A DNA stretch of 64,000 nt from Cordylochernes scorpioides (taxonomy: Eukaryota; Arthropoda; Arachnida; Pseudoscorpiones; Chernetidae): NCBI GenBank assembly GCA_030710605.1, contig CP092870.1, positions 19,444,684 to 19,508,683 of the forward strand. Reading direction: 5' to 3'. Made by a program: the position numbers and the translations under genes. The notes beneath the pieces are model-generated. The model did no database searches. It worked only from the letters and a program-made list of their open reading frames with translations, and was not told where the DNA came from. Positions 16,537 through 52,700 of this stretch are shown here, piece by piece (position 1 is the stretch's first letter; every line of letters starts with the position of its first letter).

Positions 16537-16745
16537 TTAGATGAGGACAAAAGCCTGCAAATCTAGATGGTATTTAAGCAGGCCTGTTAAGAGAAATTCT
16601 GAAGAGACTACGGGCAGGCCCAGCCTGCGGGGATTCTCCCACAGCTTCCTGTCTTCCGGACAGCTGATCACCACAGTGGAGGCTGACTTCCTGGTGGGCA
16701 TCCTCTCCAAGACCTCCACACACAGAGAGTGCTTCATTCTACAGC
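16537..16745 (-). CDS. MDC1: MDC1 last exon: end of BRCT2 and stop
   Basis: 209 nt. It encodes CRMKHSLCVEVLERMPTRKS then STVVISCPED...RRLGLPVVSSEFLLTGLL...LQAFVLI and stop TAA, parallel to the human RVVITCPQD...GLPLLSPEFLLTGVLK...AFVL end. The start is set by phase: the previous exon leaves one base, and the AG at 16,747-16,746 supplies GC to complete Gly. The more obvious AG six bases further (ctgtag) would give an immediate stop. No pyrimidine tract precedes the acceptor; a SINE tail lies about 50 bp upstream. Confidence 0.8.
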
Positions 16746-25700: not shown

Positions 25701-28700
25701 GACTTGTATCTTTTTTTGGTCACCATTGGGGAGGTTGGAGATTGGGGATCATCTTTTTTCCTCTTTGCATCCAAACTTATAACCTTTGAAAGAACATTTT
25801 CTATATCATCAATTTGTATGCCTCCATTCTTTTTACGTGTCATTCTTTTAGAAATATTTTCATCATCTTTAGGAACTACTTCTCGTTTAGAATTTTTAAG
25901 ATTGTTTTTAGTTGATCTTTCTGAAGAAGCTGATTCTTTTGTAATATCATCTTGCTTGGAAAGCCGGATATTTTTAACAGGGTGTTCTTCAGAAGAATTA
26001 GTTGACTCATCTAAGGTGTTTTCTCTTTTAAAAACGGGCTTTCTTTTCCTACTTGGTCTCTCAGAGCTCTCTACATCCACAGCTACTGTATCCTTTGTTC
26101 TGACAGTTCTAGCCGAAGAACCAAGCTGTGCATCATTTTCTTGTTTAGAAGTCTTTGTTCTACTTTGTCTCTCTGTAGTGATTGGATTATTATTGCCTTC
26201 AGTTTTACCTAATTTATTGCTATGTTCTGGACTATTTAAATTTTGCTGTTTGCTATTAACTGCCATTTTTGTGGTTAATTGTTCCAAATTATCTTCCACG
26301 GAGCTCCGTTTTGTCCCCCTTGTTCTGATTTTAGAAGAATATTCAATGTCCTTTTCAATGTGTCTCTTACTTCTAGTTCCTATTGCTGAAAGAAACCCTT
26401 TATTTGTATCCAAATTTTGATCCAACTCTGTTTTTGACTCAGGTTTGTTTCTGTTAGGTTTATAGTTTTTTATATCTTCAAGTCTAACAAAGGGTTCTAA
26501 TTTAGGGTCTTTTGCTCTAGTGTTGAAAGATGTAGTAGCACTATCATTGGTATCATTACTGTGAGGATGTTTTTTGGAATTTCTTTTTTGAACAGTTCTT
26601 GAGTCATTCTTAGCCTCTATTTCAATACCAGGTACTTTTTCTGACAATTTAGATGTTTGAGCATCCCAGCTATCCTTAGAGGATGTTCCCTTCAATTTGA
26701 CCTTTCTTGTGCTTCTTCTTATCACCATTGATTCATCTGGAGTGTCTCCAGGTAAAGATTCAGCATTAAGTGAAGTTGTTTCACTTTTGTTAACATCTGT
26801 CATTTCAACAAATCTTTCTATTTGAGAGAGTGTTTCATGGCAAAGTGAGGAGGATAACTGAAGCTCTTTAGCAGAGGAAGCTGTTGACTCAGCAGCCTTT
26901 TGAGACTTTGTTGACCTTGACTTATCAGGTTTAATATTCTCCGAGGTTTCTGACATTTCTACAAATCTTTCTATCTGGGAAAGAGTTTCAGACAAACTTT
27001 CTGGACAATGTGAAGTTGCTTCCTGAAATTTTTCTCCAGAAGTAGAATCCAAAGAACTGTTTGATATTATATTAGATGGATTTCTTTTAGATCTTCTTGA
27101 TCTCAAGTTCTCTTTTAACTTGCCATTGTCTTTATTGTCAGATGGTTCTTTTGATATTTTGATGAAGTTTTCAATCTGGGAAAGGGTCTCAGGCAAACTT
27201 TCTGAATTAGGAGCTAGAGAGCCCTCAGATGGAAGGTGACTAGGGGTGGCTTGCACAGAACTCTGAGAAGAATCATTGGTTGGAAGAGTTCCATTTTTTA
27301 ATGGTTTTCTTTGAGACCGTCTTGGCAAAATATTGCTTGCTTGAGGAACTTTAAAAACATCATCTTTTTTAACATCAGCTGATGCTTTAGATTTATTTTG
27401 AGTCTGCTGCTGAGTCTTTTTGCTCCGAGTTTTTATCCCAGGGTCACGCTGAGGAAAATTTTCAAGGAAGCCAACAATTTGGGAAAGAGTTTCTGGTGGA
27501 GTGTCACTTGGAGTGCTAATAGCTGACTCTGCAGGTTTTTGGTTGTTTTCTGTTTTCTTACCTTCACTTCTTTTTGTAAATTCTTCTTTCTCAGAAACCA
27601 CGGATGAATTATCTTTTAATTTCTTAGTCAAAGAACCCTTGGTCTCTCTTTCACTACTAGATTTAGTTTTAGATTTACTTGAAGATTTTGGCCTTCCCCT
27701 TGATTTAGTTTTGATTTTCTCATTTTGGTCTAAATTATCTTTAGCTTCGCTATTGGCCATCTCTATGTTGGTAAGTTTTGTAGATTTATCTAACGCAGGC
27801 CTTGCATCTCCAGAAGAGAGTGGTAAATCTATATGGGATGGGCTAGCTTTCAATTCAACAGTTTTGTCAAAATGTTTCACGGGCAAGTTTTCTACTGTAT
27901 CAAGAACTTTTTCCTTTACTTGATTCACCCCCTTCTGTTTACCATTGGAAATGTTGGAACATTCAATACTTTCCTTCTCACTATCAGCACCAATGGGCTG
28001 AGTTGCATCTAAACTTTCAATTTCTGCATTTTTCTGCAAGTGGGAACTAAAGAGAACAGCATTTTCTGTGATTTTTGATGAATTAATGGCAACAGTCTCA
28101 ATAGATAAGCATTGAGTAGCTTCTAATAATTGGTCATTATCATCCGCTTTTTGTGGCAGGTCAGAACTATAGAGAACATTTCCAGTAGATTTTGGAGACT
28201 GAACTTTAGAAGAATCAGGTTCAACTGGCATGCACTGGGTAGCCTCTAAAGACTCATAATTGTCTTTCTGTGGCAGGTCAGAACTATAGAGAACATTTCC
28301 AGTAGATTTTGGAGACTGAACTTTAGAAGAATCAGGTTCAACTGGCATGCACTGGGTAGCCTCTAAAGACTCATAATTGTCTTTCTGTGGCAGGTCAGAA
28401 CTATAGAGGACACTTCCAGTAGATTTTGGAGACTGAACTTTAGGAGAATCAGGTTCAACTGGCATGCACTGGGTAGCCTCTAAAGATCCGTAATCATCTT
28501 TCTGTGGTAGGTCAGAACTATAGAGGACATTTCCAGTAGATTTTGGAGACTGAACTTTTGAAGAAACATGTTCAACTGGCATGCACTGGGTAGCCTCTAA
28601 AGACTCATAATTGTCTTTCTGTGGCAGGTCAGAACTATAGAGAACACTTCCAGTAGATTTTGGAGACTGAACTTTAGGAGAATCAGGTTCAGCTGGCATG

Positions 28701-31700
28701 CACTGGGTAGCCTCTAAAGATTCACAATCGTCTTTCTTTGGCAAGTCAGAACTATAGAGGACATTTCCAGTAGATTTCGGAGACTGAACTTTAGAAGAAT
28801 CTGGTTCAGCTGTCATGCACTGGGTAGCCTCTAAAGATTCACAAGCGCCTTTCTTTGGCAAGTCAGAACTATAGAGGACATTTCCAGTAGATTTTGGAGA
28901 CTGAACTTTAGAAGAATCCGGTTCAGCTGTCATGCACTGGGTAGCCTCTAAAAATTCACAATCATCTTTCTGTGGCAGGTCAGAACTATAGAGGACATTT
29001 CCTGTAGATTTTGGAGATTGGCTTTTGATGGAATTTGGATGAATAGACTGGCATTGGGTAGTTTCTAATAAGTTGCTAGCAGAACTTTCAGGTAGATTGT
29101 TACCAAATAAAGGTTGGGTGGGTTTCAAAGTTGCAGCAGGCTGCTCCTGTAGATGGCTTGAGGTAGAAGGACCAGGTACAGAAAGCTGATTTAGAGGATC
29201 TTCTTTAGATGGTTTATTTGAGGAGGTCTCTGAGCTTACAAGAGATTGATCATAAGATTCACTTTTGTTTATTTGGACGTTTGATGATCTTGAAATGCTT
29301 GGTGGAATTTGATTATTGTCCTCATGTGTGGGTAGATGATTTGAATTTTCTGAGGCAAGTGGAGTACAAGACAGTCTTTCTTCTAATTGTAAAGGTTTTT
29401 CCAATTCTTGAACATTCCCTATTTTATTGCTAAAGTCAAGTTTTACAGGGGAAATATTATCCTCTGGTTCAAAAGGAAGAGTCCTTGCTTTATTCGGAAC
29501 AGGCAGGATAGGAGAGAGGCTATCTTCAACTTGGTCAAAATTAGGTCCAGGAGAAGATGAATCATTGACTTGTGATGTGCCTTGCAAGTGTGGAGGAGTT
29601 TCTGCAATAAAATCCTCATCAAAAGAATCTGAAGACCTATCACATTGTGTACTAGGACATAAAATATCACCTGGACTTGAAGGCTGTACCTCAACTGGAG
29701 AGAGAACCCTAGAGTCTGCAATCTCCTGGTGCTCTATTTCAATAGCAACCTGCTCCTGAGGAGAGCTCTCTGGGACTCCAAAAGGCTCAGTACAAGCTAC
29801 TAGGATATCTGAAGTAGGTACCATGAAGGGTTGAGTGGGAGGAAGGTTGTCAGGTGAAGGGTAGGGCTGAGTTGGGGCCATGAAGTCCACAGTACCATAG
29901 GGCTGGGTTGGACCCAGCTCATCTATATCATAGCCCTGAGTTGAGTTGAGATCATCAGATGTAACATTAGGTGGAGCTTCTGTACCGGGAATAAACCTTG
30001 AACTAGAGTCCCTGGTGTTGTCTTCCCTCTCATCCTCTCTTTTGTCTCCTCTCAAATTTGTATCACATGGTGCATTGCTGTCATCTAAAGTTCCTTGAGG
30101 GGTCGGCTCATCCATGTCAGTATCATCATTGTCACTCAAGTTGACCTGAGAAGTTTCTGGAGCAGTGGATTCTTCTATGTCTGTAGCATCTCCACTGTCA
30201 TCATCTCCTGTAGGAACAGCAACAGGATGGGAGCAGGATTCCTCCTGGAACATAATGGCAGTCTGTAGCTGACAAAAGTCTCACACAAGTTAGTTTGTTT
30301 AAATAAAGTTTTGATTTGTTGGTGACACCTTTGATGATCTTCAATCTTTAGCTTGCATAATTATAAAAATGGAAACTGGCAAGTTTTAATGTGGTGGTGT
30401 TTACTGTTATACTTTCCCAAAAACAGAATTGGGCAGGACAGAGCCAGGAAACAATCCTTCACCTCCTCTTTTCTCTGTATTTAGAGCTCTACCAGGGATG
30501 ACTTCCCAGTCTAGGTAAATATACAAGTACAGTAAAACCCCTCTATAGAGAACCCCAATGGAATTACACTTTTGGTGGGGGTCGGTGGAAGGGTGGTCTA
30601 AACCATTGGTTTTCGACTGCTACGATCCGGGATCGAATCCCGCATTGGGCACTTTTTTCTGATAAAAAATTTTTAAAAATGCTCCAATGGCCTCAGATTC
30701 TTGCAAAAGTCCAACCCCCACCAGCGAGTGCAAGTAACCAAACAAGGTTCTGGCACATTTGTAAGTGCAAAGTCGAACTGCTTTTCACATGTGTTGACAT
30801 GTGGTGCACTTACAGTAAAAGCAGTCGCCTACTTCTACCCACCATGATTATTATGGCCTGTACCATGTGTACTAGGGATAAGAAAAAAAAAAACACTTTT
30901 GGTTCACTATAGCCACAGTTTGGCAACTTTTTTCTTTTCAAAATTTTAGAACGTATAATTATAGGACAACCATACACACAGGAAAAGGCTTCTTAATAGT
31001 GGTCACTTTTTTCAATTCTATAAAAATTGATCAATTTCCTTACATTAATGCTAAATAATAAAAGAAATAATTTGATGATAGGTTCTTCTAATCATTAGCA
31101 TACATGTACCTCTATGTTTAATTTCAAAATCAAGACAATTCCTAGGCAAAGTTTTATTAAATATATATTCAAAGATTAAAAAATATATTTTTAACATCTT
31201 TACCATGTAAAACATTGCTAGCTTAAAAATCACCATAGTTAATGGTATAAAAAATACCCTGATATGATCAAGTAAGAAAGAAGAAGACATAGATCTGCGG
31301 AAGTGCATACATATACTTGTAATAAAATGCAATGAACAATGCTTTTTTGAATATATTAATTCCTATTAATGCTAATTATAGCCATTTACAATTATAACTT
31401 CAATTGCCATCTAAGAATAAGTTTTGCAATATGTTTCTGATGATATAAACAGTAATACCCCCCCCCCCCCCACTGAAATTAACTGAGGTATAGTGAACCT
31501 TCTCTTATAACAAACCTCTCTAAGGTATAATTCCAGGGGTCGGCAACCATTTGAGTCAGAAGAGTCAAAAATTACAATTTATAAAATTTCCAAGTTTTAA
31601 AGAGCCACAACATTTTTTCTTGCCAACAATAAATAGTTTTTTTTTTTGCTTATCCCTAGTACACATGGTACAGGCCATGATAATCATGGTGGGTAGTTAG

Positions 31701-34700
31701 CGACTGCTTTTACTGTAAGCGCACCACATGTCTACACATGTGAAAAGCAGTTCGACTTTGCACTTACAAATGTGCCAGAGCCCCGTTTGGTTACTTGCAC
31801 TCGCTGGTGGGGTTGGACTTTTGCAAGAATCGGGGGCCATTGGAGCATTTTTTTTTTTTTTAAACAGAAAAAAGTGTCCAATGCGGGAATCGAACCCGGG
31901 TCGTAGTGGTCGAAAACCAGACGGTTTAACCAGCCTTTCACCGACCACCTTTTTTTTTATAGGAGTACTACACTTAGCTTCACATCCAAAGATCCGCAGG
32001 TTTCTAAACCCTGCCCTTTTCCATTCTATTAATATATTAATTGTTCAATGGCGGAAGCTGAAATATTTATTTCTTCCTTTTTTTGTGCATTTTTACTTGA
32101 ACACTTTTAATGATAAGGCACAATTTGGATTATAGATTATAAACAAAAGGTAACAAGACCAAATCTAAATAAATAAATATAGTGTGTGATGTTTCATTAT
32201 CAACGTTGTTCATCACTCACTATTTATTTATTTGGTCTTATTACTTTTTTTTAAAAAGCCTTTTAAAAAATATTTTATTATAAATAATTATTTATTTAAT
32301 TCATAGTCCTCTGAATTCTTCAAATGTACAAATTTATCATTATATTTTTAAATAAGCTTAATTTTAATTATTATAAATCACTATATATTTCTGCAAATAT
32401 CCTCCCAATTATTCATAGCACTAGTTCATACTACCGATTAATTTTTATGGAAGGCCAGTCATTCATTAATCTACAAATGGTTGCGTCTATTTTTTCATTT
32501 TTGATATATATAAATTCTATTCTATTCCAGATCATTGCGGCTACCATGGCACCATTGCACAATGCAAGTGCTTTACTGAATGAAAAATAGTTGATCCATA
32601 GTGACACATAATTTCAGTCTCATTGAGATTCACTATAAAGGGCAAGTGCTTTACTGAATGAAAATAGTTAATCCATAGTGACACATAATTTCAGTCTCAT
32701 TGAGATTCACTATAAAGGGCAAGTGCTTTATTGAATGAAAAATGTTGATCCATAGTGACACATAATTTCAGTCTCATTGAGATTCACTATAAAGGGCAAG
32801 TGCTTTATTGAATGAAAAATAGTTGATCCATAGTGACACATAATTTCAGTCTCATTGAGATTCACTATAAAGGGATTTTACAGTATTATTAAATGCAGAT
32901 TTTAGTGCAAGGATAGAGTTTGGCGAAACTGCTGAGAGGGTTCACCACTGATGAGCCAAGCACTCCTATCTTTCTATCTCTACAGTAAGGGGTCTGCAGA
33001 AATAAGTATTTTAATTATATTTTTTTTTATTTTGTATAGGACTGTTGTGTGTTTCTAAATTTTACAAATGAAAAATTCGTTATAACAATGTATTTTTCAA
33101 TGGAATGAAATTTGAGACTTTCTTTATTGTTATAAGGGAAGAGGTTCACTACATCCCTAGCTTGCTTTAGCAAGGTTTTACTGAATTCTATTTGTTTCAC
33201 TTTTTTATAATTATATGAACAGAAAGGTAATATTTTCTGGGTATTTAATGCACTCTTGTTCTGAATATGGAGATAGAACAATCAAATCTGAATATGTTAA
33301 GAAGATAAGAGGGCAATATGTAAATATGTAATCAAAGAGGATATTTATAAAATACATGGCAGTACTCACAGTAGGTTCTACATCTTCATCCTCTGTATCA
33401 GACTGTAGTGCAGGGACCTGGACATCCAGACAGGTGTTGAAATTATTAAGATCCCAAAAATATTCATGTTAACATTATAACACTTATACTTCACCCAATT
33501 AAATTTTTCTTCAATAATTTTTAGCACTCATAGAAAACACATGCTGAAATAGAAAAACAGATCAGAAGGCAAATTTTTTAGCATTCCAAACCTCAGACAA
33601 TATTGACCTAAATAGATTGAGATCTTTTTAAAAAAGTAATTAAAATGAAATAACTAAGGATGAGGATTAGGTTCCTGCCAGTATTTATCCTAATTCAGGC
33701 TAAATTTAAGAGGAATAAGACAAGGTAGAAGAACTCACTTGGGACGGCTTCTTGTGTCGTTTACTTTCTTCTGGACTTGGAGGGAGAGCCTAGACATACC
33801 ATCTTAATGTTTCTATTGCCCCCAGTGATTCCAAATGTATAAGTACTGAAAGTTATCACTTCAAGTGAAGTCTGAGTATATTTTGTTTTAAATAACATGA
33901 AACTTTGGCAGGAAGAAGGTAATGGTCCATGCTATAGAATAAAAGTACATTTTTCAATAATTATGTCAATATAGTGTTAGTGCCAGGCCATGATAATCAT
34001 AGCAGCAAGGGTCTAGTGTAAAGGTCTACTCCTGGTCTACAAGCTGTAGACTTTGCACTTACAAATGTTCACCCACTTCCACAAAACCCTTTTTTTTTTT
34101 GGTAAATAAGAGGATTTTTTAATTGAATATATTTAAAATTCCAATAATTATACTAACACAGCTAAGTGTATTCGTTACAAGAAACCTATCCCTGGAAGCC
34201 TGATGTTTCCAACTTAATATTTGATACAAGGAATTATTTTATTGAATAAATATTGTTGGGTGTCAACAAGTAGCCGACCGGATGGCACATGTGACCAGAA
34301 CTAATTATTTTTAATTTATTTACTAGCCGAATGACCCGGGCAACGTCCGGTTCATCCTTCCTCAATTTTACTTCTCAAAGTTGTCGCAGTGAGACGCTGG
34401 TTACAAGTGAAATAGGGAAAATTTGTTAATAACTTTAAGGATATTTGAGACAGAAGCCTGAAAATTTGCCTATAAGTTTTTCCAGATACAACTCTATATA
34501 TTGGTAAAACTTCAACCAGATTAGTTATGTATTGTAGACGTGTATAGCCGACAAACATACATACATACACTGACTTTTATATATATAGAGATTATTATTG
34601 TTTTTTAGATTTATCAGAGAGAGAGAGAAACAGTACCACAGAGATGACGGGTATTAATTATATTTGACCATTGAACACCGTTTTCCCTGCAATGTGTAAT

Positions 34701-37700
34701 GTGCCCGTTATCTTTAGCATTTCGATCAAAATACACAGTGACATAATTGTCTTTAACATGTCCTGTCTCAGCTAAAACCCCTCCTACAACCGGCCTAACA
34801 AGATCCAGAACTTAAGAACATTCCTAGACTGGACCACGAGCCCAGCAATGGACCAGGCCTTAGTGACCATAACCCACCAGTATAGAACACTGCCCCAAAT
34901 AAACCCACTGGGCCTTACATCCCTGCCTGTCTCATCAATATATTCTATTAATTAATAAGTACATTATAAAAAATGTAAATAACATGTGGCAAAAATGAAC
35001 ATGAATGCTAATAATGCCACCAATTTTTAAAATTATTGACGTGACAACGTCTTAAATTAGGTTGCGGCTGGGAGTCACTTATGAAAAAGTGTAACGCCCG
35101 GTAACGTTACGATGAGGCACCGAACGAGAGTGCTGCGCGCGCAGCTGCATTAGGCGCATTGAATCGGCGCATGCTTGTCTCTGTCTTTGTCTTTCTCGAA
35201 CGTTCTTGGCGTTGGAAAAACAAGAAAGCGTCATAATACAAGTTCACACGTGTGGTTAAAGTATCATCAGCTGTGTCTGTAGTGAAAATGTGGAGTGCTT
35301 AGATTCGTCATTTACAACAACTACAACAATAAAGGTAAATAATTGTACACTGATATTTCATTATCGTAAACTATGATTGATTGATTAATTGTTAGATTGA
35401 CACAAAAGTTGAGAAACTGAGTTTATAGGTTATGTCATACTATTGATAAATGTTGATAGTGTTAAGTAAATTATTAGTTTAAAATTAATTAATTAATTAA
35501 TTATTATTTTACAAATTTTAAATAGTTTCAAATTTATTTAGCAAAAATTTGAACCTTCGATCTGAATAAATGTTTTGATTTTCGAATTGATTATTTAAAA
35601 TTACAAATATTAAGAAAAAGTGGCAGATATAAGAAAACTTTATTTAAACTGTGTTGAGCAAGAATTTTAACATCTAATATAAGTAAATGTTTTAATTTTC
35701 AACTTCATCATTTACAATTACAAATTTTATTTAATTTCAAATTTATTTAGCAAAAATTTGAACCTTCGATCTGAATAAGTGTTATGATTTTCAAATTGAT
35801 TCTTTAAAATTAAAAATTCATCCATTCAATTTCAAATGTTCAACAGGAATCACCACTCTCAAAACAATGGAAACGGTGCCTTCAACTTCCAGTACTTCAA
35901 TGGTGGAAACGACTCACAGACTACTCGAGATATTCGCAATGAATACTTACGACTTCGTGGACACACTCTAGACACAATTACCAAACAAGCCGTAAAATTC
36001 TGTGATGACGCAACCGACGCTGGACAACTTATTGTAACGAACATCAACTGTCAAAGTTTAAGTGCCCATGCCGCGGACATTGAAACAGATACAGTGATAC
36101 CACGATCAGACTATTTAGTATTGACTGAAACGTGGATGCGCGACACTTGTGAACCAACTCCAATCAAGGGTTATGAGTGCGTATCCAGGGAAAATAATCG
36201 ACCTAACTCAGATACCAACGCGGCTGGTGGAGTGGCGATCTATCGTAAATTATCATCGACATCTACGGCGGAAGTGTTCCAAGTTGCGATTACAGACGTA
36301 ACTCGTGTCATTAAAACCAAGGGTGACATGTGCATGACTGAAGTTACTTGCTTCGCCGCTAATACTAGCTTCAAGTTTATACTCGGTGCTGTATATATTC
36401 ATCCAGGAGCTAGTATGCAGGATATTGGAATGTTACTATGGCAAGGACTCGGTCCGTACATTCACAACAGCCAGTACGTGCCACCGTTCGTGCAAATTGA
36501 TTCTAGTATACCGATTCTTCTGTGTGGTGATTTTAACAAAAACGTAAAGCCTGACAACTCGTTTCTTAATTTCATGAAAAATACGTATAATCTTGATTGC
36601 GTATCAAACGTTTCTAAGTCAACTACGTTAAAAGGAACAACTATCGACTTGACTTTCGCAAGACACATTACAGCAGAAACACTTCCTTTCATTTCATATT
36701 TCTCCTATCATCGTCCTATCCTCAACAAAATCACTCAAATAGGAATTAGTTAAGTTTAAGTTTACATGTACAATGTTTTAGTAAACAAAATATATTTCTA
36801 TAGTTAAAATTTGTGCAATTCTTATTTTCATTCAATTCCTTGTTCCTATTGTGCAATTTAATTATATTCATATCAATAAATATTCTACCGTTGTCACGTA
36901 AAATCTTCGCCCGTAAAACCGACTTTACAGGCAACCATTGTTTTTTTTATTAATTTTACAAGATAACACGACTGCGAAAACAATATCATAAAATACTCAT
37001 GTATCAAGCAAATGATCAATAATGCTCTATAAAAAGCATCAAGAAAATATATTTTACATTTATCATTATACAATACACTGCGGCTTGTGATTGTAAAACA
37101 ACTCTTGAAGTTACACCGCATGAGTTTCTTTTTTGAAACACATCTGTGAGCTGAACATGTTCAAAATTTGGTTTTTAAAAATCTTTTTAGTTAAAATTTT
37201 AAATTGATTAAAAGTAGAATAATTTACATATGATTTTTAATTTTAGGACTCAAAATTAGTTGTGTGCCTCAAATTTTTGTTTAATTCAAGTTTGTTATAA
37301 CAATGTTTTTTGAACGGAATAGAATCAGGGATTTCCTTTATTGTTATAAGGTAGGGTCCACTACATCCCTAGCTCACTTTAGCAAATTCCTAGTGTATAT
37401 TGATTTTGAAATTGTTACACTTTTATTTTAATTTTATGAACAGAAGGCAATATTTTCTGGGCATTTAATGCACTCTTGTTCTGAATATGGAAATAGAACA
37501 ATTTTGGTTTAAAAATGTCTAATCTGGATATATTATGAAGATTTAATATAAGAGGGCAATATGTAAATATGATATCAAAATATTTATTAACAGATTATCA
37601 ATTTTGATATTTATATTTTGCTAATCCGTACACTTTCCTCATTGCTTCCCTTGTATTTTATAAATTTTAATTTTTTTTTTTTTGTTTGCTTATCCCTAGT

Positions 37701-40700
37701 ACACGTGGTACAGGACATGATAATCATGGTGGGTAGAAGTTAGCGACTGCTTTTACTGTAAGTGCACCACATGTCTAAAAATGCGAAAAGCGATTCGACT
37801 TTGCACTTACAAATATGCCAGAGCTCTGTTTGGTTACTTGCACTCGCTGGTGGGGTTGGACTTTTACAAGAATTGGGGGCCATTGGAGCATTTTTTTAAT
37901 TAGAAAAAAAGTGCCCAATGTGGGATTCGATCCCGAGCGGTAGTGGTCGAAAACCAACGGTTTAGACCATCCTTCCACTGACCCCCTATTTAATTTGTTC
38001 TTTTCTTTAAATAAATTGCCTTGTCATTCTAAATTTTGTCTTTCCTAATTTTCTACATGACATTTTGGTGGAGAGGCTGGGTAGATTAGGGAAGACAAAC
38101 TGAAGAACGCCGAGAAGACCTTGAGGCAATGGGTGCTGTGATCTACATATTCTGAGACTGTCTCCAAGATTCCACCACAGGAGACCAAGGACATGGTGGA
38201 CACTGAAGGATGTCACATCTGTGGTGACTTACTTGGTGAATCTTCCTCAGTTACCTGACGTTACATCATTATTTAATTTGTAAATAGTTTGTTTATATAT
38301 CTCTCAGTTTGATTTTAATACCTGACAAAATTAGTAAATTCATTCCTTGGTAAAACAATGATGACCCATTCTGGTCTCACTTATAATCTTGATATAGACC
38401 AATGGAATGTGGACATCTCCCAGGACAGTGCAACAATTTGATATCACAGAGGATGCCAATTTATAAAATACATGGCAGTACTTACAGTGGGTTGTACATC
38501 TTCATCCTCTGTATCAGACTGTAGTGCTGGGACCTGGACATCCTGACAGGTGTTGAAATGAATAATATCCAAAAATATGTAGGTGTACATTATAAAACTT
38601 ATCTTTCATATCCATTTAAAATTTCTTTAATAATTTTTATTTCACATAGAGAGCACATGGAAGAGCTAAAATAGAAAGAACAGATCAGCTGGCAAAATTT
38701 TCAGCATTCCAAACCTCAGCTTCTTGACAATATTGACCTAAATTGATTGAGATCTTAAAAAAAAAAGTAAATATAATGAAACAACTATGGTTGAGGGATT
38801 AAGTGGCTGTCAGTATTTATCCAAGCTCAGGCTAAATTTAAGAGGAATAAGATAAAAGAACTTACTTGAGACGGCTTCTTGTGTCGTTCACTTTCTTCTG
38901 GACTTGGAGGGAGAGCCTAGACACACCATATTAATGTTTCTATTGCCCCCAGTGATTCCAAATGCATATGTACTGGAAATATATCACTTCAAGTGAAGTC
39001 TGCGTATATTTTGTTTTAAAATAACATGGAAAGAAATTTTGGCAGGAAGAAAGTAATGGCCCATGATTTTTTAATCAATTTTTTTATAGAGGTATATTTA
39101 AAAATAATTATATCAATATGCTTTTAGTGCCAGGCCATGATAGCTATGGTGTGTGTAAAGTTTATCTCATGTTTATTGACATGTAGACTTTGCACTTACA
39201 AAATGTTTCCCCACTTCCACGGGATTTTTAATATAAAATATTTAAAATTCCAATGAATATATTAACCCAGCTAAGTGTATTTATGGCAAAGACTAGCTTA
39301 TAAGGTATAGATAATGCTGCTAACAAAGTATAACTTTTGATTTTTGTAACTTGCTATTTTGTTTTGACTAATTTCATCCCTCAGTTTATTCTCAGTAAAT
39401 TTAAAAATATGATGTTTGTCTGTCCACAAATTTTGAAGTCAATTTCTATTATACTTCTTGAACATAAGCAAGCCTATAAATTTAAACACTTGCTCAATTC
39501 TGATGACAATTCAAATGTACAAAACTTCAAATTATTAGGCCCTTTAAAAGAATGTTGAAGAGAAAAAGATTTAGAAAAATCTGATAAAACAAAAGAGTAA
39601 AATAATTATTTTGATTAAATAAAATTAAAAGTTTATTGAAAAAAAACTTTTATCAAAGAAACAGAGAAAGAAGGAAAAGTAAAACAAATCAAATAAAAAA
39701 ATTGATAAAGAAATTAGCAAATCAAATATGTATAAAGAGTATAATAAAAAGAAAGAAAAGAATATTTTGCTCAAATAAAAATATAGAAGACAAAAAATAT
39801 ATTTTTATTTTCTTTTGCTTATCCCTAGTACACGTGGTACAGTCCATGATAATCATGGTGGGTAGTAGTTGGCGACTGCTTTTACTGTAAGTGCACCACA
39901 TGTCTACACATGTGAAAAGCAGTTCGACTTTTTTGCACTTACAAATATGCTAGAGCCCAGTTTGGTTACTTGCACTCGCTGGTGGGGTTGGACTTTTGCA
40001 AGGATCGGGGGCCATTGGGGCATGTTTTTATAAATCAGAAAAAAGTGCCCAATGAGGGAATCGAACCCGGGTCGTAGCGGTCGAAAACCAACGGTTTAGA
40101 CCACCTTCCACCGACCCCCTTTAAATTTTTTTAAAATGTAGAAAGTAGCAATAATCTATTTAAATAGATTTTGAAATAATTCCTTAGAAAGTAGAAATAA
40201 ATAGGCAGACAACTAGTGACACCTGCTCAAACTGATTCAATTTCATGAGCTGCAATGTATGAGTAAGTATAGCAAGTTGTACAAGGAACGTGACAAATCA
40301 GTTACATGTATTTGGAATCCTGTCTCAAGAATCCCTCAGAGTGATGAATACCACAATAAGGATGTACTTGATCAGGTGAAGAATTATAAAGTTTCAGTTG
40401 ATACAGAGGACAATGAATATTGTTCATTGTGAAATTTGTGTATACATCACATGCAGTATTCAAGACCAAATCAATGTAATTATGGCTCTTCATAACAGAC
40501 AAAGCAGGAAAGACATTCCTGTTGTAATTCCTCAGGAAAGTCAAGTAAACAATGGTACAGAAATCAAGGAATCCAAATAAGTACATTAACAGGTGTAACA
40601 GCTCCTTCTGTTGGAGGATCAACACCACATTCAAGTTGCCGGCTCAAAAAAAGATTATAAGCTGGTATAATCTAGAAACCTTGAGGCCATAGGGGTGCTG

Positions 40701-43700
40701 TGATCTACATATTCTGAGACTGGCTCCAAGATTCCATCACAGGAGACCAAGGGACATGGTGGAGACTGAAGGATGTCACATCTGTGGTGACCTACTCGGT
40801 GTATCTTCATCAGTCACTTGACGTTACACCATTGTTTAATTTGTAAATAGTTTGTTTATATATCTCTCAGTTTGATTTTAATATCTATAATACAATATAA
40901 TGCAGCTTATAATTGTAGAACGACATTTGACAATTTTACCGTAAATGTTTCTTCTGAATGAAAAATCGTAATTTATTTTAAGGAGAAATAACGACTATTT
41001 CTATTCTTAGGGATGAAGCATGAAAGAATGAATTGTGAAGAGTAATCCCATCCCTGGATACTTTTATTTTTCCGTTTATCATTACTCTTCACAATTCATC
41101 CTTTCATACTTCATCCCTAAGGATAGAAATAGTCGTTTATTTCTCCTTAAAATAAATTACGATTTTTCGTTCAGAAGAAACATTTGCAGTAAAATTGTCA
41201 AACGTCGTTCTACAATTTTAATATCTGATAAAATTTGTAAATACACTTTCCTTGGTAAAACAATGATTATGCATTCTGGACTAACTTATAATCTTGATAT
41301 GGACCAATAGAATCTGGACTTGAAGCCCATCTCCCAGGACAGTGCAACAATTTGATATCACAGAGGATGCCAATTTATAAAATACATGGCAGTACTTACA
41401 GTGGGTTGTACATCTTCATCCTCTGTATCAGACTGTAGTGCTGGGACCTGGACATCCTGACAGGTGTTGAAATGAATAACATCCCAAAAATATGTAGGAG
41501 AACATTATAAAACTTATCTTTCATCCATTTAAAATTTCTTTAATGATATTTATTTCACATAGAAAGCACATGGAAGAGCTGAAATTGGAAGAACAGATCA
41601 GCTAGCCAAATTTTCAGCATTGCAAACCTCAGCATCTTGACAATATTAACCTAAATAGATTGAAATCTTTAAGAAAAAAAAAAGAGTAATTATAATGAAA
41701 TAAATATGGTTGAGGGATTAAGTGCCAGCCAGTATTTATCCAAGCTGAGGCTAAATTTAAGAGGAATAAGGAAGAAGAACTTACTTGAGACGGCTTCTTG
41801 TGTCGTTCACTTTCTTCTGGACTTGGAGGGAGAGCCTAGACACACCATATTAATGTTTCTATTGCCCCCAGTGATTCCAAATGCATATGTACTGGAAATA
41901 TATCACTTCAAGTGAAGTCTGCGTATATTTTGTTTTAAAATAACATGGAAAGAAATTTTGGCAGGAAGAAAGTAATGGCCCATGATTTTTTAATCAATTT
42001 TTTTATAGAGGTATATTTAAAAATAATTATATCAATATGCTTTTAGTGCCAGGCCATGATAGCTATGGTGTGTGTAAATTTATCTCACGTTTATTGACAT
42101 GTAGACTTTGCACTTACAAAATGTTCCCCCACTTCAACAAAAGTTTTTTTTGTAAACAAGATGATTATCTTAATTAGAGATAATATATTTAAAATTCCCC
42201 TATGTAGGCTAACACACAGCTAAGTGCATTTATGGCAAAGAACCTCTAATAAGGTATAGATAATGCTGCTAATAAAGCATCACTCTTGATTTTTGTACCT
42301 TGCTATCTTGTTTTGACCTGTTATCTCTCAGTTTATTCTCAGTAAATATAAAAGTATGATGTTTGTCTGTCCACAAATTTTGAAGTCAATTTCTATTATA
42401 CTTCTTGAACATGAGGAAGCCTATAAATTTTGAACATTTTCTCAAATCTGATGCCAACGCAAGTGTACAAAATTTCAGATATTTAGGCTGTTGAAAAGGT
42501 TTTAATAGAAAAAAAAAAATGCAGTGGATCATCTCTTCTTCATCTGCTCAGCTTTCTGATAACAAAGAAATCAAATAGCCACTCTCCTATGAGTTATAAA
42601 ACTCAACCTGGAATCAATGAAAAATATCTTGGAAATAAATCTGATTGACACTACCTAATATCTTAGACTTCCGCATCATTGTAAATATAACCAAAAAGTC
42701 TTAAGTCTGACTGACAACACAAGTACTTAGAGAGATCTTTTGAAGGCCTAGGAACCTGGGTTAATTACATATATAACCTCCATGAGAGGGCATTTGCGCT
42801 AGAGGACATATCTCTACAAAAAAAAAAACAGTTTTCATTTTCAAAATTACCATTTTTACAATTTAACAACTCTCCAGTAAAAGGAAATCTCTCCCTAAAG
42901 GACACTTTGGCTCTGCAATTATGTGTCCTTTACAAGGAGGTTCTACTGTATATTTTATTTATAAAAGATTTAAATTGATTAAAAGTGTCTAGTATTTTAA
43001 TTATAATTTTTCATTTTAGGAATAAAAATTAGTTGTGTGTGTTTTTAATTCAAAGTTTGTTATAAAACAATGTATTTTTCAGAGGAATGGAATTTGGGAT
43101 TTCCTTTATTGTTATAAGGGAAGAGGTGTTCACTACATCCCTAGCTCACTTTAGCAAGGTATAATGAATTTGTAATTATTTCATTTTTTAAATTTTATGA
43201 ACAGAAGGCAAAATTTTCTGGGTATTTAATGCACTCTTGTTCTGAATATGGAGATTACACAGTTTTGGTTTGAAAATGTCTAATCTGGGTATATAAGGTG
43301 GATTTAATACAAGAGGGCAATATGTAAATATGTAATCAGAGGATACCAATTTATAAAATACATGGCAGTACTCACAGCGGGTTCTACGTCTTCATCCTCT
43401 GTATCAGACTGTAGTGCTGGGACCTGGACATCCTGACAGAAATAATTTCTATTGCCCATAGAAAGCATTTGGAATAGCTGAAATTGAAAGAACAGATTAG
43501 CTGGCCAAATATTCAGCATTCCGAACCTCAGCTTCTTGACAATATTGTGACCGTAATAGATTAAGATATTTAAAAAAAAAAGTAATTATATGAAATAAGT
43601 GAGGGATTAAATGCGAACCAGTATTTATCCTAACTCAGGCAAAATTTTGAGGAATAAGACAAGGTAGAAGAACTCACTTGGGACGGCTTCTTGTGCCGTT

Positions 43701-46700
43701 CACTTTCTTCTGACACTGGAGGGAGAGCCTAGACACAGCAGGCTGATGTTTCCCAGGGATTGCTAATGTATAAGTACTGAAAGTTATCACTTCAAGTGAA
43801 GTCTGAGTATATATTGTTTTAAATAACATGGAAAGAAACTTTGGCAGGAAGAAGGTAATAGTCCATGATATAGAAGTACATTTTTCAATAATTAAATCAA
43901 TATAGTTGCCAGGCCATGATAATCATAGCAGCAAAGGGGTGTAAAAGTCTACCCCTGGTCTACGGGGTGTAGACCTTGCACTTACAAATGTTCCTCTACT
44001 TCCACAAACCTTTTTTTTTTTGGTAAATAAAAGGATTTTAATAGAATATATTTAAAATTCTAATATGTAGGCTAACATACAGCTAAGTGCATTTATGGCA
44101 AAGAACCTCTAATAAGGTATAGATAATGCTGCTAATAAAGCATCACTCTTGATTTTTGTAACTTACTATCTTGTTTTGACCTGTTATCTCTTAGTTTATT
44201 CTCAGGGAATTTAAAAATATTATGTTTGTCTGTCTACAAATTTTGGAGTCAATTTCCATTATACTTCTTGAACATAAGCAAGCCTATAAATTTTGAACAT
44301 TTTCTCAAATCTAATGCCAACGCAAGTGTACAAAATATCAGATATTTAGGCAGTTGAAAAGAATAATTTGATGTATATAATAATTTGAATGTAATTCTAC
44401 TGTCCTATAAGCTTATGTCCATAGTTTACTTGAAAACCATTTCTAATATTCCATCTAGGGCTTCCAATCCCGGTGCATATTTTCAATCCCGGGATTCGGG
44501 ATTGCTTTTTTCTCAATCCCGGGATTGAAAAACATTTTCGACTTTCTACGCCAAGAGGTATATCGTTTCGTTCGTTATATTTTTAATTTTTTCTTTTAAA
44601 TAGTGCCAATGACGTGGCACTTACTTCGATGAAAACAACCTGAAAGCCATATATTTTGCGCCTGCTTATGAACTAAATCATTGCTTTTGGGTTACAGTTT
44701 GAAATTATCTGTCAATTACTGTACACACATCTGGAAAAAAATTACTGTTCTTGGAACTCTTAGACCACATCTCTTAATGCAGTGTTGGGCAGTAATCCAT
44801 TCAAAGTAATACATTACCTTGTAATTACGATTACTTTGCAATGCATTACTTTGCAAAAAAAAATTAATTGCATTAGAATGTAAACATAATTACTCGTAAT
44901 TCTATATATAATGATAACAATTGTGATTAAAATTACTTGTAATTGTAATTGGTGTACATGCAGCCCTTTTGTAGACCCACCGACGCATTTCAAAATCCTT
45001 TTGCACGCTATACACTGTGCATTTTGGCCAGATCCGTCTCGTAGGTAATAGCACCAGATTCCTTCTGATTTAAAAGGAATAAACTTCGCCATCACAATCA
45101 ACAAGTGATAAGCTTACCAAAAATGTCCGACGCGTTTTCTATTGAGAAATAACAAGGTCCGATAATATTGTTTTAGAGACTTTGTTTTATGTTCGTATAA
45201 GTTGAAAACTAATTTAGGCTGATGCTTGATAGTGACGAAGCATTTAATGAAATGACATTAAATAAATTTAATTTAAATTAAATGACAAAAAAGCTAGCGA
45301 GGGCTTCACAAAATGAACAGCAGAGCAGTGCGTTCATGATGACCCCATGCATACAGAGTACAGGATGGAAAGTATAAACATAGATAATATATATATATAT
45401 ATATAAAACAATTTGGAGCCCAGATAAGAGGTTAGTGGCGGGTCCATGTTACACGCAGGTCCGCCATAAAAATAAAGGGATGCCGCTACTATCTAAGAAG
45501 CCACTATTTGTATGTCAACAAAATAATTTCAAATCTCTCAGAAAAAAAAAAAGACCCGAAATGCAGCTGTATAAACAAAACGTCAAAAGTGTGCTATCTC
45601 ATCATCTGTTTGATTACCAAAATGCTAGATAAGAAAATATATTTTTGAGCTGGTTTCCATGCACAAACCAGTAATTTGGCTCCGGGATCCCGTGAAACGG
45701 GATCCCGGGATTGGAGGCCCTAATTCCATCCTTCAGTGTAGCATATAAAAGCAGAATGATCCAATACAGTATTAGAGCTCTGAGAAGCGGTCTGGTGGAT
45801 TAAATTGGCGAAACCGCTGGAAGGGTTCACCACTGATGAGCCAAGCCCTCCTAATATATTTTTTTCATCGCAGTAAGGACAGTAGAAGTTCATTTTATGT
45901 ATAAAAGAAACATTCGCGCTTTTAAATCCTTTTATTTTATATATATAGATGGCGCGTTATTGCTTTGTGTTAGTTGAAAAGAATATTTAATAGATAAAAA
46001 TATATTTAAAAATGCAGTGGATCATCTCTTCTTCATCTGCTCAGCTTTCTGATAACAAAGAATTCAAAGGCCATTATCCTATCAATTATAAATCTCAACC
46101 TGGAATCATTGAAAAATCTCCCTAGAAATAAATTGTTTGACACTACCTAATCTCTTAGACTTCCACAGTCAATAAAACGAGAAAGACTTAAGTCTGACTG
46201 ACAACACAAGTACTTAGAGAACTTTTGAAGGCCTAGGAACCTGGATTAATTACACACACATATATATATATTATTTATAAAATATATATTCTAATATCAT
46301 ATTGTGTGAATGATTTTATGTATAGATAATAATACTGGGTTTAATGTAATACAAATGAAAGCACCAGAACGCGAATGTTTGTTTTCACAAATAAATCAAA
46401 CTTCTACTGTCCTTACTGCGATGAAAAAAATATTAGGAGGACTTTGCTCATCAGTGATGAACCCTCCCGGCGGTTTCGCCAGTTTAATCTACCAGACCGC
46501 TTCTTTAGAGCTCTAATACTGTATTGGATCATTGTGCTTTTATATGCTACATTGAATGGTGGAATTTTAGAAATGGTTTGCATATTAAGCAATATGCATA
46601 TTATATATATGCATATTAATGGGCATATATAAATATTTTAGTGAGATTTCGCAAAATTTCAACTTTTGTAAATTCATGATTAAAAACTAACTAAAAAATT

Positions 46701-49700
46701 GATAAAAATGAAAAATACATAAAAAAAAAAAGCTTTTATATAAATGCACTAAAAAGGAAGAAATAAAATATTGTATCTTCTGTCATTGAGCAATTAGATG
46801 TATCTGAGTGAAAATAAAAGTGGCGGGGACCATCATATAGAGAAGAGGTAAAAATATAGCAAACACTTATAAAAATCGCTAATCAGTTGCTACATATTAA
46901 ATCACATAGGTTCGAAATTCATTATGATCGTTCCCCGCCGCTTTTATTTTCACTCAGATACATCTAATTACTCAATGACAGAAGATACAATATTTTATTT
47001 TCTCCTTTATAGTGCATTTAAATAAAAGCTTTTAAAAAATGTTTTTCATTTATTAATTATTAAAAATAATTTTAGTTAAAATTTTTAATTGATTAAAAGT
47101 GTCTAGTATTTTAATTATAATTTTTAATTTTAGAAATAAAAATTAGTTGTACATTTTTTATTTTATTTTTAATTCAAAGTTTGTTATAACAATGTATTTT
47201 TTGAATGAATAGAATTGGGAATTTTCTTTATTGTTATAGGGAAGGTTCACTACATCCCTAGCTCACTTTAGCAAGGTATAATGAATTTGTGATTATTTCA
47301 TTTTTTAAATTTTATGAACAGAAGGCAAAATTTTCTGGGTATTTAATGCACTCTTGTTCTGAATATGGAGATTACACAGTTTTGGTTTGAAAATGTCTAA
47401 TCTGGGTATATAAGGTGGATTTAATACAAGAGGGCAATATGTAAATATGTAATCAGAGGATACCAATTTATAAAATACATGGCAGTACTCACAGCGGGTT
47501 CTACATCTTCATCCTCTGTATCAGACTGTAGTGCAGGGACCTGGACATCCTGACAGAAATATTTTTTATTGTGCATAGAAAGCATATGGAATAGCTGAAA
47601 TTGAAAGAAAAGATCAGCTGGCCGAATATTCACCATTCCAAACCTCAGCTTCTTGACAATATTGTGACTGTAATAGATTAAGATATTGAAAAAAAAAAAA
47701 GTAATTATAAGAAATAACTAAGGGGGGTCGGTGGAAGGCTGGTTAAACTGTTTAGTTTTCGACCACTACGACCCGGGTTCGAATCCCTCATTGGACACTT
47801 TTTTCTGTTTAAAAAAAAAAAAATTAAAAAATGCTCCAATGGCCCCCCGATTCTTGCAAAAGTCCAACCCCACCAGCGAGTGCAAGTAACCAAACGGGGC
47901 TCTGGCACATTTGTAAGTGCAAAGTCGAACTGCTTTTCACATGTGTAGACATGTGGTGTGCTTACAGTAAAAAAGCAGTCGCTAACTACCCACCATGATT
48001 ATCATGGCCTGTACCACGTGTACTAGGGATAAGCAAAAAAAAAAAAAAACTAAGGATGAGGGATTAAGTGCCAGTCAGTATTTATCCCAACTCAGGCAAA
48101 ATGCATGAGGAATAAGACAAGATAGAAGAACTCACTTGGGACATTATAGGGTAATGATGGATGTTAAAGGGTTAACCAATCTGTGCTAAATGAATCGTAC
48201 ACCTTTTAACAAAAGAGCAGAAAGAACAGGGCAAGGAAACATGCAAAAGCATGTTCAAAATGTTTAATTCTGATCCCCATTGATTCAAATATGTCATCAC
48301 AGGAGGTGAAACGCAGATGTGAAATTTGACCTGTGTGGATAAGACAATATTAAACCAATGGTTAGATCCTGGAGAACCAAGATTACAAGAAAGTAAGGAT
48401 GATCAATTGAAGTGCCATCCTTCTTTTGGTGTAATGAGTTGGCACACTTGGGGAATTCACATGTCCCAGATAATTAAACAACATCAATGGTACCAGAAGT
48501 TCTCACAGTTCTTGGTATCAGAAGTTCTTGCACATGGCAACTATTGGCCACATAAGGCCGTCGGGGGTCAGTGGAAGGGTGGTCTAAATGGTTGGTTTTC
48601 GACCGCTACAACCCAGGATTGAATACTGCATTAGACACTTTTTTCTAATTAGAAAAATGCTCCAATGGCCCCCGATTCTTGCAAAAGTCCAACCCTACCA
48701 GCGAGTGCAAGTAGCCAAAAGAGGCTGTGGCACACTTGTAAGTGCAAAAGTCAAACTGCTTTTCACATGTGTAGACATGTGGTGCGCTTACAGTAAAAGC
48801 AGTCGCCAACTTCTTACCCAACATGATTATCATGGCCTGTACCACGTGGTACTAGGGATAATAATAATATTAAAAAGAAAAAACATAAGGCTGTCACTGT
48901 CCAACTCTATTTAGCTAAACACAGAATTCCTTTACTACTTCAGCCATCCTAATCTCCTGATATTGCTTCCATGAAGTTTTCCTTTACCCTATAATCAAGA
49001 ATTTTTAAAAGGAAGTCAATTTCATTCAATAACTCAAGGAGATTGAGAATAATATTTGGAGAAGCCATAAAAATAAGTGGATTTACTGAAGTGTTTTGAT
49101 GTCTGGAGATAAAATGATTGAACAAGTGGATAGATGACGATTATTTTGAGAAATTTCAAATGAAATATTATATTCTACTTTCATAATTCTTTAAATATTT
49201 ACCCCCATATCTAAATTATTTATTACCCACTGCATGTATATTTGCAGAAATGTGGGAGAATTTTCAAACAACATTTCATATTTATACACAGTAAAACTCC
49301 GCTAAAACGAACCTGGGATATAATGAACCTTTCCTTAAAACAAAAAAATTAACATTTTTATTATATAATTACAGTAAACTATGACAATAACAAAGCTTGG
49401 CTATAGTAAACCACAGGTTCAGTCCCTTTGAGGTTCATTATAGAGGGGTTTTACTGTAAATATTTCTAATACAGTAGAACCTCCCTGTAAAGGACAGCAG
49501 AGCCAAAGTGTCCTTTAGGGAGAGGTGTCCTCTTACTGGAGAGTTGCTAAATTGTAAAAATGGTATTTTGCAAATGAAAACTGTCCTTTGTAGAGAGGCA
49601 TCCTCTAGCGTTGAGTATCCTCTCATGGAGGTTCAACTGTAGTACACTAACTAGCCCCTATAGGTACTCATTATTTAGTTCAGATTAACAAGTGATTTTG

Positions 49701-52700
49701 ACAAATGGAATTTTAGTGATATTGCAAAACATCTTCCCTATGAATTCCCATTTATATAATGCAAACAATTAAAAGGTGAACGCTGTATATACAATAGATT
49801 GATTAAAAGTGAAAAGCCTAGTGTGCACATCTTACCTTTTCTTCATGTGGGGGAGGCACAGTGTGGCAATCTGCCTTCTGAAACAACATATACAAATTCC
49901 GGTAAGGCACAATATGGATTATAGTTTAGAAACACAAAGTAATAGAAGTAATAATAAACACAAGGTAATAAGACCAAATCCAAATAAATAAATAGTGTGT
50001 GACATTTCGGTAACGGTGTTGTTACCATCTTCAGACAAAAGTGTTGACAACGCTATTACCAAAACATCACAAACTATTTGATTTGGTCTTATTACCTCGT
50101 GTTTAAACTCCGCCTTTGCCGGTCCCAAGCCCCGATGAAAAAGGAGGAGGGGGAGCAGTAACAAGCTCACTAAAAAACCTGGGTTCAGTTGCCCGGCTTT
50201 TACTGAAAGTGCACCACATGTCTACACATGTGAAAAGCAGTTTGACTTTTGCACTTACAAAAGAGAAGCAATAAAAACATCATATGTAAGATTCAAATAA
50301 AAAATGCTGGACAAATGAAACGAAACAAAAAGCGTTCTGATAACACAAACCGCCTTTGCCGGTCCCAAGCCCGGATGAAAAAGGAGGAGAGGGAGCAGTA
50401 ACAAGCTCACTAAAAAACCTGGGCACAGCTGGCCCGGCTGATAGTACCCTGTAAGGGCTCCTAATCCAGGGATACAGGATGAGCAGCGTTTGTACTCCAT
50501 GTTAGGAGCGGCTGCACATGGTTTCTGTTCCTCATGTCAGAGGCGACCATTTCTTTTGGAGCTAAGTCGGCCTGCCACTGAATGGTGCTCCCAGTCTTAA
50601 TGATAAGGCAGACGCATTCTACTTCACTCAGTCATTATGGTTGTCAAACAGACACCATCAAGGGTCACAACTTGACACCCTAATATGATTGAGTGGAGAT
50701 AAGAAAGAAGAAGGTCTTCTACAAGGGGACAAACTTCCCCATCTCCCATCTCTTCATAAAAGTTCTAGACTACAGAGTTGCGACAGCTTGTTCCAAGTTT
50801 GACAGCGATCCAAGTTTTCCAGATGACATTGAATCCAAAACACACAGATTCAAAATCTCAAGAAAAATTCAAAAAACTTTATCAAAAACAGCATTGACAT
50901 TCAGTCAACATGTTAATCCCCTCAAGACTTAGGTTATTTAGGTTTGCTCCCGGGGGTTGGTGGAAGGATGGTCTAAACCATTGGTTTTCGACCCTTACAA
51001 CCCGGGTTCGATTCCCACATTGGGCACTATTTTTCTGATAAAAAAAAAAAAAAAAGAAAAGGCTCCAATGGCCCCCGATTCTTGAAAAAGTCCAACCCCA
51101 CCAGCGAGTGCAAGTAACCAAACGGGGCTCTGGCACATTTGTAAGTGCAAAGTCGAACTGCTTTTCACATGTGTAGACATGTGGTGCACTTAGAGTAAAA
51201 GCAGTCGCCTACTTCTACCCACCATAATTATCATGGCCTGTACCACGTGTAGTAGGGATAAGCAAAAAAAAAAAAAGGTTTGTCCCCCCATCTACCAATC
51301 AATTGATAACATTAACAAGAGAAAACAAATAGAACTTCAACAACAGAACAATTTAAACAAAAATCTCAATATCCCATTTTGCACCACAATATAAGACTAT
51401 AAATTAGAATGAGTATAAAAACTCTACTTTTATACTATTCTCAAATCTGGAACCTTGCAACAATTAAGTATTGCTTCCAACTAGAGTGGTTTCATTTAAG
51501 TGTTTCTGTTAAATACATAGAGCCAAGTGCTGTTCTTAAAGTGGTTGTGTGGAAACTGTATATACAGTAGAACCTCCCTGTAAAGGACACCTAATTGCAG
51601 AGCCAAAGTGTCCTTTAGGAAGAGGTGTCCTCTCTTCTTTCTTATCTCCACTCAATCATATTAAAGTGCCAAGCTTGTAGAGCTTGAGACTTTTGATGGT
51701 GTTTGTCGGGGATGAGTAGAGCATATCAATGGATAAGTCAATACAGTCAATGATAAGTTTTGGGGTTGCAAGTTGAGAATTGCACTTGGTACATGGTAGG
51801 AAAACCTTGCAACCATTCTGGAAAGTCATTGTCCGTAGATGACCAGACTTAAGTCTGGAAATCGAAGACGGTTGTTCTCTTGGGATGACAGAACTGGTGC
51901 TTGTCCCTCCTGCTCTGTACCATTCATGTGCAGCATTAGATTTCAAGAGGTGTCCTCTTACCAGAGAGTTGCTAAATGGCAAAAATGGTAATTTTGCAAA
52001 TGAAAACTGTCCTTTGTGGAGAGGTGTCCGCTAAAGGGAGGTTCTACTGTACAGTATATACTTTAAGAACAGCACTTGGCCATGTTTAACAGAATTCTGG
52101 ATTTAACAGAAGCACATAAATGAAACCACCCTGGTTGGAAGCCATATTTATTTGCTGAGAGCTACAATCAGTGGTTTGTGCGGACTCTCCTTAGACACCA
52201 TCCTTTACCTTACATCACCATATCACAACAGTGGGCAATACCAGATAGATTTACAATCCACAGGATTGTGCAAGGACTGAGAAAGTTGGGGGGATGCATG
52301 CCGTCTAGAGAGATTTGTAGAATTTTATAGAGTTTCCCTGTTTTATACAAATTTGTAAAATAAAATTTGATAATGATGAACTACTACAGTTATTTAATGA
52401 CGTTTCTCACTGTCCCTATGTCTATTAGTAAGTGGCATAACACACTATAGTAATACCATATGTTTATCTTTCTTTTTAATATAGCATGGATTTCTCAGAG
52501 GTTTCACCTGGGGATCTGGAATGAGCACAAACTGGAAGTGGAGATTGCCCAGGTAGATATGATCTCCGTCTGTGAGGCTGTAGCGGACCTGGGGCTTGAG
52601 AAGTAGCTTGCCTTTGCGAGTCTTGTTGAGACTGCCCCGGTCGTAGAGCAGGCAGTCTCCATCCTGGTCCACCTCAATCACCGCATGCTCTTTGGACAGG

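Follow-up and report, generated by a model that had tools for sequence, protein, structure and literature searches.

At DNA breaks in vertebrates, the MRN complex is believed to be retained by several weak phospho-motifs. In human MDC1, the SDT repeats are described as binding, once phosphorylated, to pockets in the FHA and BRCT1 domains of NBS1 (PMC8079451), and a survey of 119 metazoan MDC1 proteins reports TQxF motifs together with SDTD repeats for non-mammalian vertebrates, but TQxF only for invertebrates (PMC11014961). The window analysed here, a 64-kb stretch of the genome of the pseudoscorpion Cordylochernes scorpioides, holds most of an MDC1 gene on its minus strand, in which a motif of the SDT type recurs in a series of alternating mini-exons. 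All coordinates are positions in this window, which lies on one of the 24 contigs of a 2.62-Gb genome.

As in vertebrate MDC1, the FHA domain is followed by several CK2-type S-D-T sites, TQxF and a C-terminal BRCT pair, and the pocket residues of NBS1 are kept. However, the host is an arthropod, the motif is SDTE, and each copy occupies one mini-exon which was duplicated with its intron. The arthropod MDC1 of Drosophila, MU2, also possesses an FHA domain, TQ dipeptides and a BRCT pair, but SDTD repeats are reported to be absent from it (PMC11014961), and its FHA domain is described as binding MRN (PMC2672170). Tandem arrays of similar exons within one gene, grown by repeated duplication, are known from the zinc-finger exons of teleost Piccolo. 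Those exons measure 702-1350 bp and carry zinc fingers (PMC3484663), whereas the exons described here comprise 48-57 bases, encode a linear phospho-motif and are of two alternating types. A literature search of limited depth found no report of SDT repeats in an arthropod MDC1. With moderate confidence, we interpret the array as a multivalent, CK2-dependent NBS1 dock in an arthropod MDC1, built by tandem duplication of an exon pair.

The array lies between the FHA exons and a large central exon and consists of five A mini-exons, each with the motif SDTEDE, in alternation with four intact B mini-exons. The order in the modelled transcript is FHA - K - A5 - B4 - A4 - B3 - A3 - B2 - A2 - B1 - A1 - central exon. 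B exons encode 17 residues and A exons 16 or 19; all their lengths are multiples of three, and all introns from the second FHA exon to the central exon are in phase 0. In a six-frame search of the window, SDTEDE was found five times, always on the minus strand (33402, 38518, 41432, 43408 and 47525); no other SDTD or SDTE occurs in the window or in the joined protein. All five SDT[DE] motifs of the joined model lie in A exons, with five SDTE and no SDTD after the FHA domain. The motifs start at residues 127, 163, 199, 235 and 268, which corresponds to spacings of 36, 36, 36 and 33 residues. An earlier note on this DNA had described the alternation of five A exons with four intact B exons, their single orientation and their phases, and the scans and the joined model bear out this description. 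Its proposal that exon pairs were duplicated together with their introns is also supported, as the exons recur with their introns on the same strand and are frame-neutral.

The assignment to MDC1, likewise made in that note, is well founded. The joined model comprises 2103 residues from the FHA domain to the stop codon, and every exon join is in frame. The N-terminal domain matches Pfam FHA (2.6e-13), and its four best matches in the PDB are all MDC1 (top E 8.6e-10). Both BRCT_2 and BRCT of Pfam are matched by the C-terminal pair, whose best PDB match is the MDC1 chain 2ado (E 6.8e-50). In the alignment of this pair to MDC1, FTG is retained and DRIRRTVK stands opposite DKFRRTIK; the phosphate-binding residues are presumably the Thr of FTG and the Arg and Lys of RxxK. 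The model also contains one TQPF, which is of the TQxF type, and two TQPY. Judged from these similarities, the gene is an arthropod orthologue of MDC1. The first exon or exons were not found 5' of the FHA exons. Protein-database searches with the large exon and with the FHA, A/B and initial central-exon region gave no matches among 7975 and 7996 scored candidates, in a collection that is perhaps poor in animal proteins.

A partner for the putative dock is encoded in the same genome. Two matches on C4, about 4 kb apart on the same strand (E 6.2e-10 and 0.0044), identify an NBS1 orthologue. A search with Pfam PF16508 gave no match for NBS1, and its controls were equally silent. In the FHA and BRCT1 phosphopeptide pockets, all ten residues compared are identical to those of human NBS1 (R28, K29, S42, R43, H45, K73, S118, C119, K125 and K160). 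With the exception of H45, these residues are named as phosphopeptide contacts, and the SDTE sequences of rodent XRCC1 have been called consistent with NBS1 binding (PMC8079451). In SDTEDE, the Ser and the Thr are each followed by an acid at position +3. An acid at this position is the pattern recognised by CK2. The docking function suggested previously is plausible, because the pocket residues of NBS1 are conserved in the same genome.

The mechanism which we propose is as follows. A unit of two exons, B and the SDTEDE-containing A, was copied in tandem with its introns 3' of the FHA exons. If all copies were spliced in, the protein would carry five CK2-type S-D-T-E-D-E sites, of which CK2 would phosphorylate the Ser and the Thr. 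The doubly phosphorylated motif could then be bound by NBS1 through its FHA and BRCT1 pockets, and repetition of the motif would raise avidity. While the BRCT pair of MDC1 would grip chromatin marked by gamma-H2A, the repeated motif would keep MRN there. The units would later have been partly homogenised, probably by gene conversion. We infer the splicing of every A and B exon, the phosphorylation, the binding of NBS1 and the gain in avidity from this arrangement.

Conservation of the exons was assessed from column counts in alignments of units 1-4 or of all five units, from which gapped columns and 35 splice-flank columns (9 of them variable in units 1-4) were excluded; the first nine A columns were scored as exon, though they are probably intron in A1. 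In units 1-4, 12 of 108 exon columns were variable (A 5/57, B 7/51) in comparison to 217 of 666 intron columns (Fisher p 2.2e-6). Across all five units, the ratio was 5/57 in A and 145/356 in the introns (p 9.9e-7). The ratio of nonsynonymous to synonymous differences (pN/pS) was 0.26 for A and 0.46 for B, with few changes underlying both values. The 13-residue core, which is kept in all five A exons, survived in none of 4000 simulated runs at the intron rate and in 0.1% at half this rate, on a tree whose lengths were set by eye from the intron distances. It is likely that selection, rather than conversion alone, has conserved these exons.

Several observations weigh against the docking array proposed here. 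Splice scores were obtained with simple matrices built from commonly known splice-site frequencies, with no training on sequences of this species. Three of the four B acceptors rank only in the top 14-22% of the AGs in the window, and an AG inside each B exon outscores the predicted acceptor, although the resulting 32-base exon would break the frame. A5-A2 each possess two in-frame acceptors nine bases apart, and A4 and A5 an additional one farther upstream, which would give an exon of 102 bases. For A4 and A5, the acceptor of the long form scores poorly (top 11% and 21%, respectively) and that of the short form better (top 1.7%). A1 has TG in place of the upstream AG, and therefore only the shorter A form, starting from the in-frame AG nine bases downstream, is left. 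The values of pN/pS are based on small counts. When the simulated rate was a quarter of that in the introns, the core survived in 4.9% of the runs, and local homogenisation therefore weakens this test. Just 3' of A, 26 of the first 27 intron columns are invariant in all five units; since the invariance spills into the intron, the low variation may be due in part to splicing signals or to conversion. Furthermore, the motif is SDTE and not SDTD, and an arthropod MDC1 that binds MRN by its FHA domain is already described in Drosophila (PMC2672170).

Alternatively, the majority of the A/B units could be genomic leftovers, with only one pair or none being spliced and the likeness of the copies caused by conversion instead of selection. 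The weak B acceptors, the AG lost from A1, the truncated B5, the long identical runs between units and the intron after A, which is as invariant as the exon, all agree with this explanation. Nevertheless, we consider it unlikely, since exon columns are far less variable than intron columns of the same alignment, all five A exons retain an intact core although the flanks adjacent to A differ by up to 28%, and the frame is kept in all four B exons. The exons could also be real but serve another reader of SDTEDE, such as an FHA domain of the PNKP or APTX type or TopBP1, or, as an acidic linker, have no reader at all; MRN would then be held by the FHA domain of MDC1, as reported for MU2. Phospho-SDT is reported to be bound by the FHA domains of APTX and PNKP as well (PMC8079451), and the FHA domain of MU2 is reported to pull down MRN (PMC2672170). 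The position of the sites right after the FHA domain and the conserved NBS1 pockets, however, fit the arrangement described for vertebrates (PMC11014961) and make such a reader rather improbable. An equally doubtful explanation is that A and B are alternative exons, so that the number of pairs varies by transcript and splicing tunes the docking dose. As all of them are in phase 0/0, any subset keeps the frame, just as the earlier note had stated, but symmetrical phases are equally expected from duplication alone.

With regard to the history of the array, a tree of the introns groups unit 2 with unit 3, joins units 4 and 5 (support 0.99) and places unit 1 beside the 4-5 pair (support 0.82). Units 2 and 3 have a distinct segment after A in common, which differs by about 40% from the other units and is probably unrelated to their sequence; in units 4 and 5, a common gap precedes A. 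Intron divergence amounts to about 7-10% inside each of the pairs 2-3 and 4-5, and to about 10-23% between other units. Units 2 and 3 contain an identical run of 313 columns over B, and units 4 and 5 one of 213 columns. Runs of these lengths were each reached in 0 of 500 shuffles, which are blind to rate variation along the sequence. These patches probably reflect gene conversion, which homogenised the units in part. Conversion tracts are described as usually shorter than 300 bp (PMC3484663). Units 2 and 3 had been called nearly identical, which holds locally for the 313-column run but not overall, as 103 of 1249 aligned columns differ. Since intron divergence between units ranges from about 7 to 23% and near-identity is confined to patches, the duplication is apparently not all recent, contrary to what had been assumed for the process as a whole, though the homogenisation may be. 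An assembly artefact is unlikely, because 7-24% of the aligned columns differ between units and unit 5 alone carries an insertion.

A fifth B exon is represented by a remnant, and its 5' part was not found between 48.13 and 52.5 kb. Beyond the remnant lies a dispersed repeat; of its 1030 candidate matches, 40 were scored, and 39 of these lie at other places. This repeat presumably truncated B5; caution is needed because its matches begin 29-60 bases past the cut and none extends to it. Two further candidate elements were rejected. Exon K is not regarded as an ancestral B exon, as its likeness is not above that of shuffles (86 of 500 reach the K-B score). The region 37172-37590 is not a sixth unit but a tail fragment without an A exon, which resembles the tails of units 1, 4 and 5. 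The features of the gene are listed in Table 1.

Table 1. Predicted exons and exon remnant of MDC1 in the window
Feature	Position	Strand	Sequence or content	Signals and basis
FHA exon, first half of domain	58847..58963	-		acceptor ttcag, donor gtaatt
FHA exon, second half of domain	52508..52702	-	end phase 0	joined with first FHA exon gives FHA, Pfam 2.6e-13
Predicted exon K	49836..49877	-	KADCHTVPPPHEEK, 14 residues, phase 0/0	splice scores and frame only
B5 remnant	48136..48142	-	final seven exon bases and donor	
A5	47493..47549	-	DVQVPALQSDTEDEDVEPA	scans, splice scores, joined model
B4	43678..43728	-	ALPPVSEESERHKKPSQ	scans, splice scores, joined model
A4	43376..43432	-	DVQVPALQSDTEDEDVEPA	scans, splice scores, joined model
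B3	41785..41835	-	ALPPSPEESERHKKPSQ	scans, splice scores, joined model
A3	41400..41456	-	DVQVPALQSDTEDEDVQPT	scans, splice scores, joined model
B2	38866..38916	-	ALPPSPEESERHKKPSQ	scans, splice scores, joined model
A2	38486..38542	-	DVQVPALQSDTEDEDVQPT	scans, splice scores, joined model
B1	33739..33789	-	ALPPSPEESKRHKKPSQ	scans, splice scores, joined model
A1, short form	33370..33417	-	VPALQSDTEDEDVEPT	scans, splice scores
Large central exon	25322..30268	-	4947 bases; TQPF/TQPY motifs, 39-residue ATQC repeats, first BRCT begins	
Five BRCT exons	16537..25266 (25195-25266, 23005-23104, 20587-20742, 19094-19119, 16537-16713)	-	last exon with stop	

Repetition was also observed elsewhere in the gene. 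Within the large exon, a 117-base tandem array of 7.4 copies (28147-29017) encodes the 39-residue repeats with ATQC, and the joined protein contains ATQC eight times and TQ 18 times. It is possible that this cluster represents an ATM target cluster, which likewise grows by repetition. Later in the same exon, ETLSQI occurs four times in similar surroundings (model residues 1204, 1305, 1372 and 1423), each time with an SQ. The intron that separates A1 from the large exon contains four tandem copies of 77 bases (32564-32874).

The window also contains several mobile or repetitive elements. The intron between the FHA exons harbours the remnant of a mariner-type transposase (Transposase_1, 56352-56999). 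A reverse transcriptase frame (RVT_1) was found at 257-736, and, judged by eye, the adjoining frames up to about position 2861 seem to belong to this element. A dispersed repeat roughly 320 bases long (30577-30893 and similar copies), which by eye resembles a short interspersed nuclear element, has many intronic copies in both directions. An Rfam search of the window gave no match. Elsewhere in the genome, a decayed nuclear copy of mitochondrial COX1 is present (C3:89667005-89667340). It has AGA-TGA at the Ser-Trp of COX1, and these codons fit the invertebrate but not the vertebrate mitochondrial code. The arthropod nature of the host, which the earlier note had not recognised, is also apparent from the cuticle-protein family PF00379, whose abundance marks arthropods: of 333 candidates in the genome, 150 were scored, and all 150 exceed the cut-off of the family. 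No match was obtained for RAG1, for the spider-silk family Spidroin_N or for the insect family OS-D, but the controls of these searches were silent as well, which makes the negatives weak.

The array is best read either as convergent with the repeats of vertebrates or as an ancestral motif hidden in mini-exons. The published survey may have missed SDTE by its search pattern or by gene models which drop exons of 48-57 bases, or this lineage may be an exception. Tentatively, and with somewhat more doubt than conviction, we suggest that duplication of a phase-0 exon pair gave an arthropod lineage a multivalent array for NBS1 docking, newly built or else retained and hidden, in parallel to the SDT repeats of vertebrates, and that conversion makes its copies evolve in concert. 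As each motif occupies an exon of only 48-57 bases, gene prediction may have overlooked such motifs in invertebrates, and the restriction of SDT docking to vertebrates is perhaps wrong. If this is true, the published view of invertebrate MDC1 without SDT docking would be put in question, and a separately built arthropod array would provide a natural test of the copy number that is needed. The gene also illustrates how exon duplication, conversion or splicing can alter the number of copies of a linear motif while the reading frame remains unharmed.

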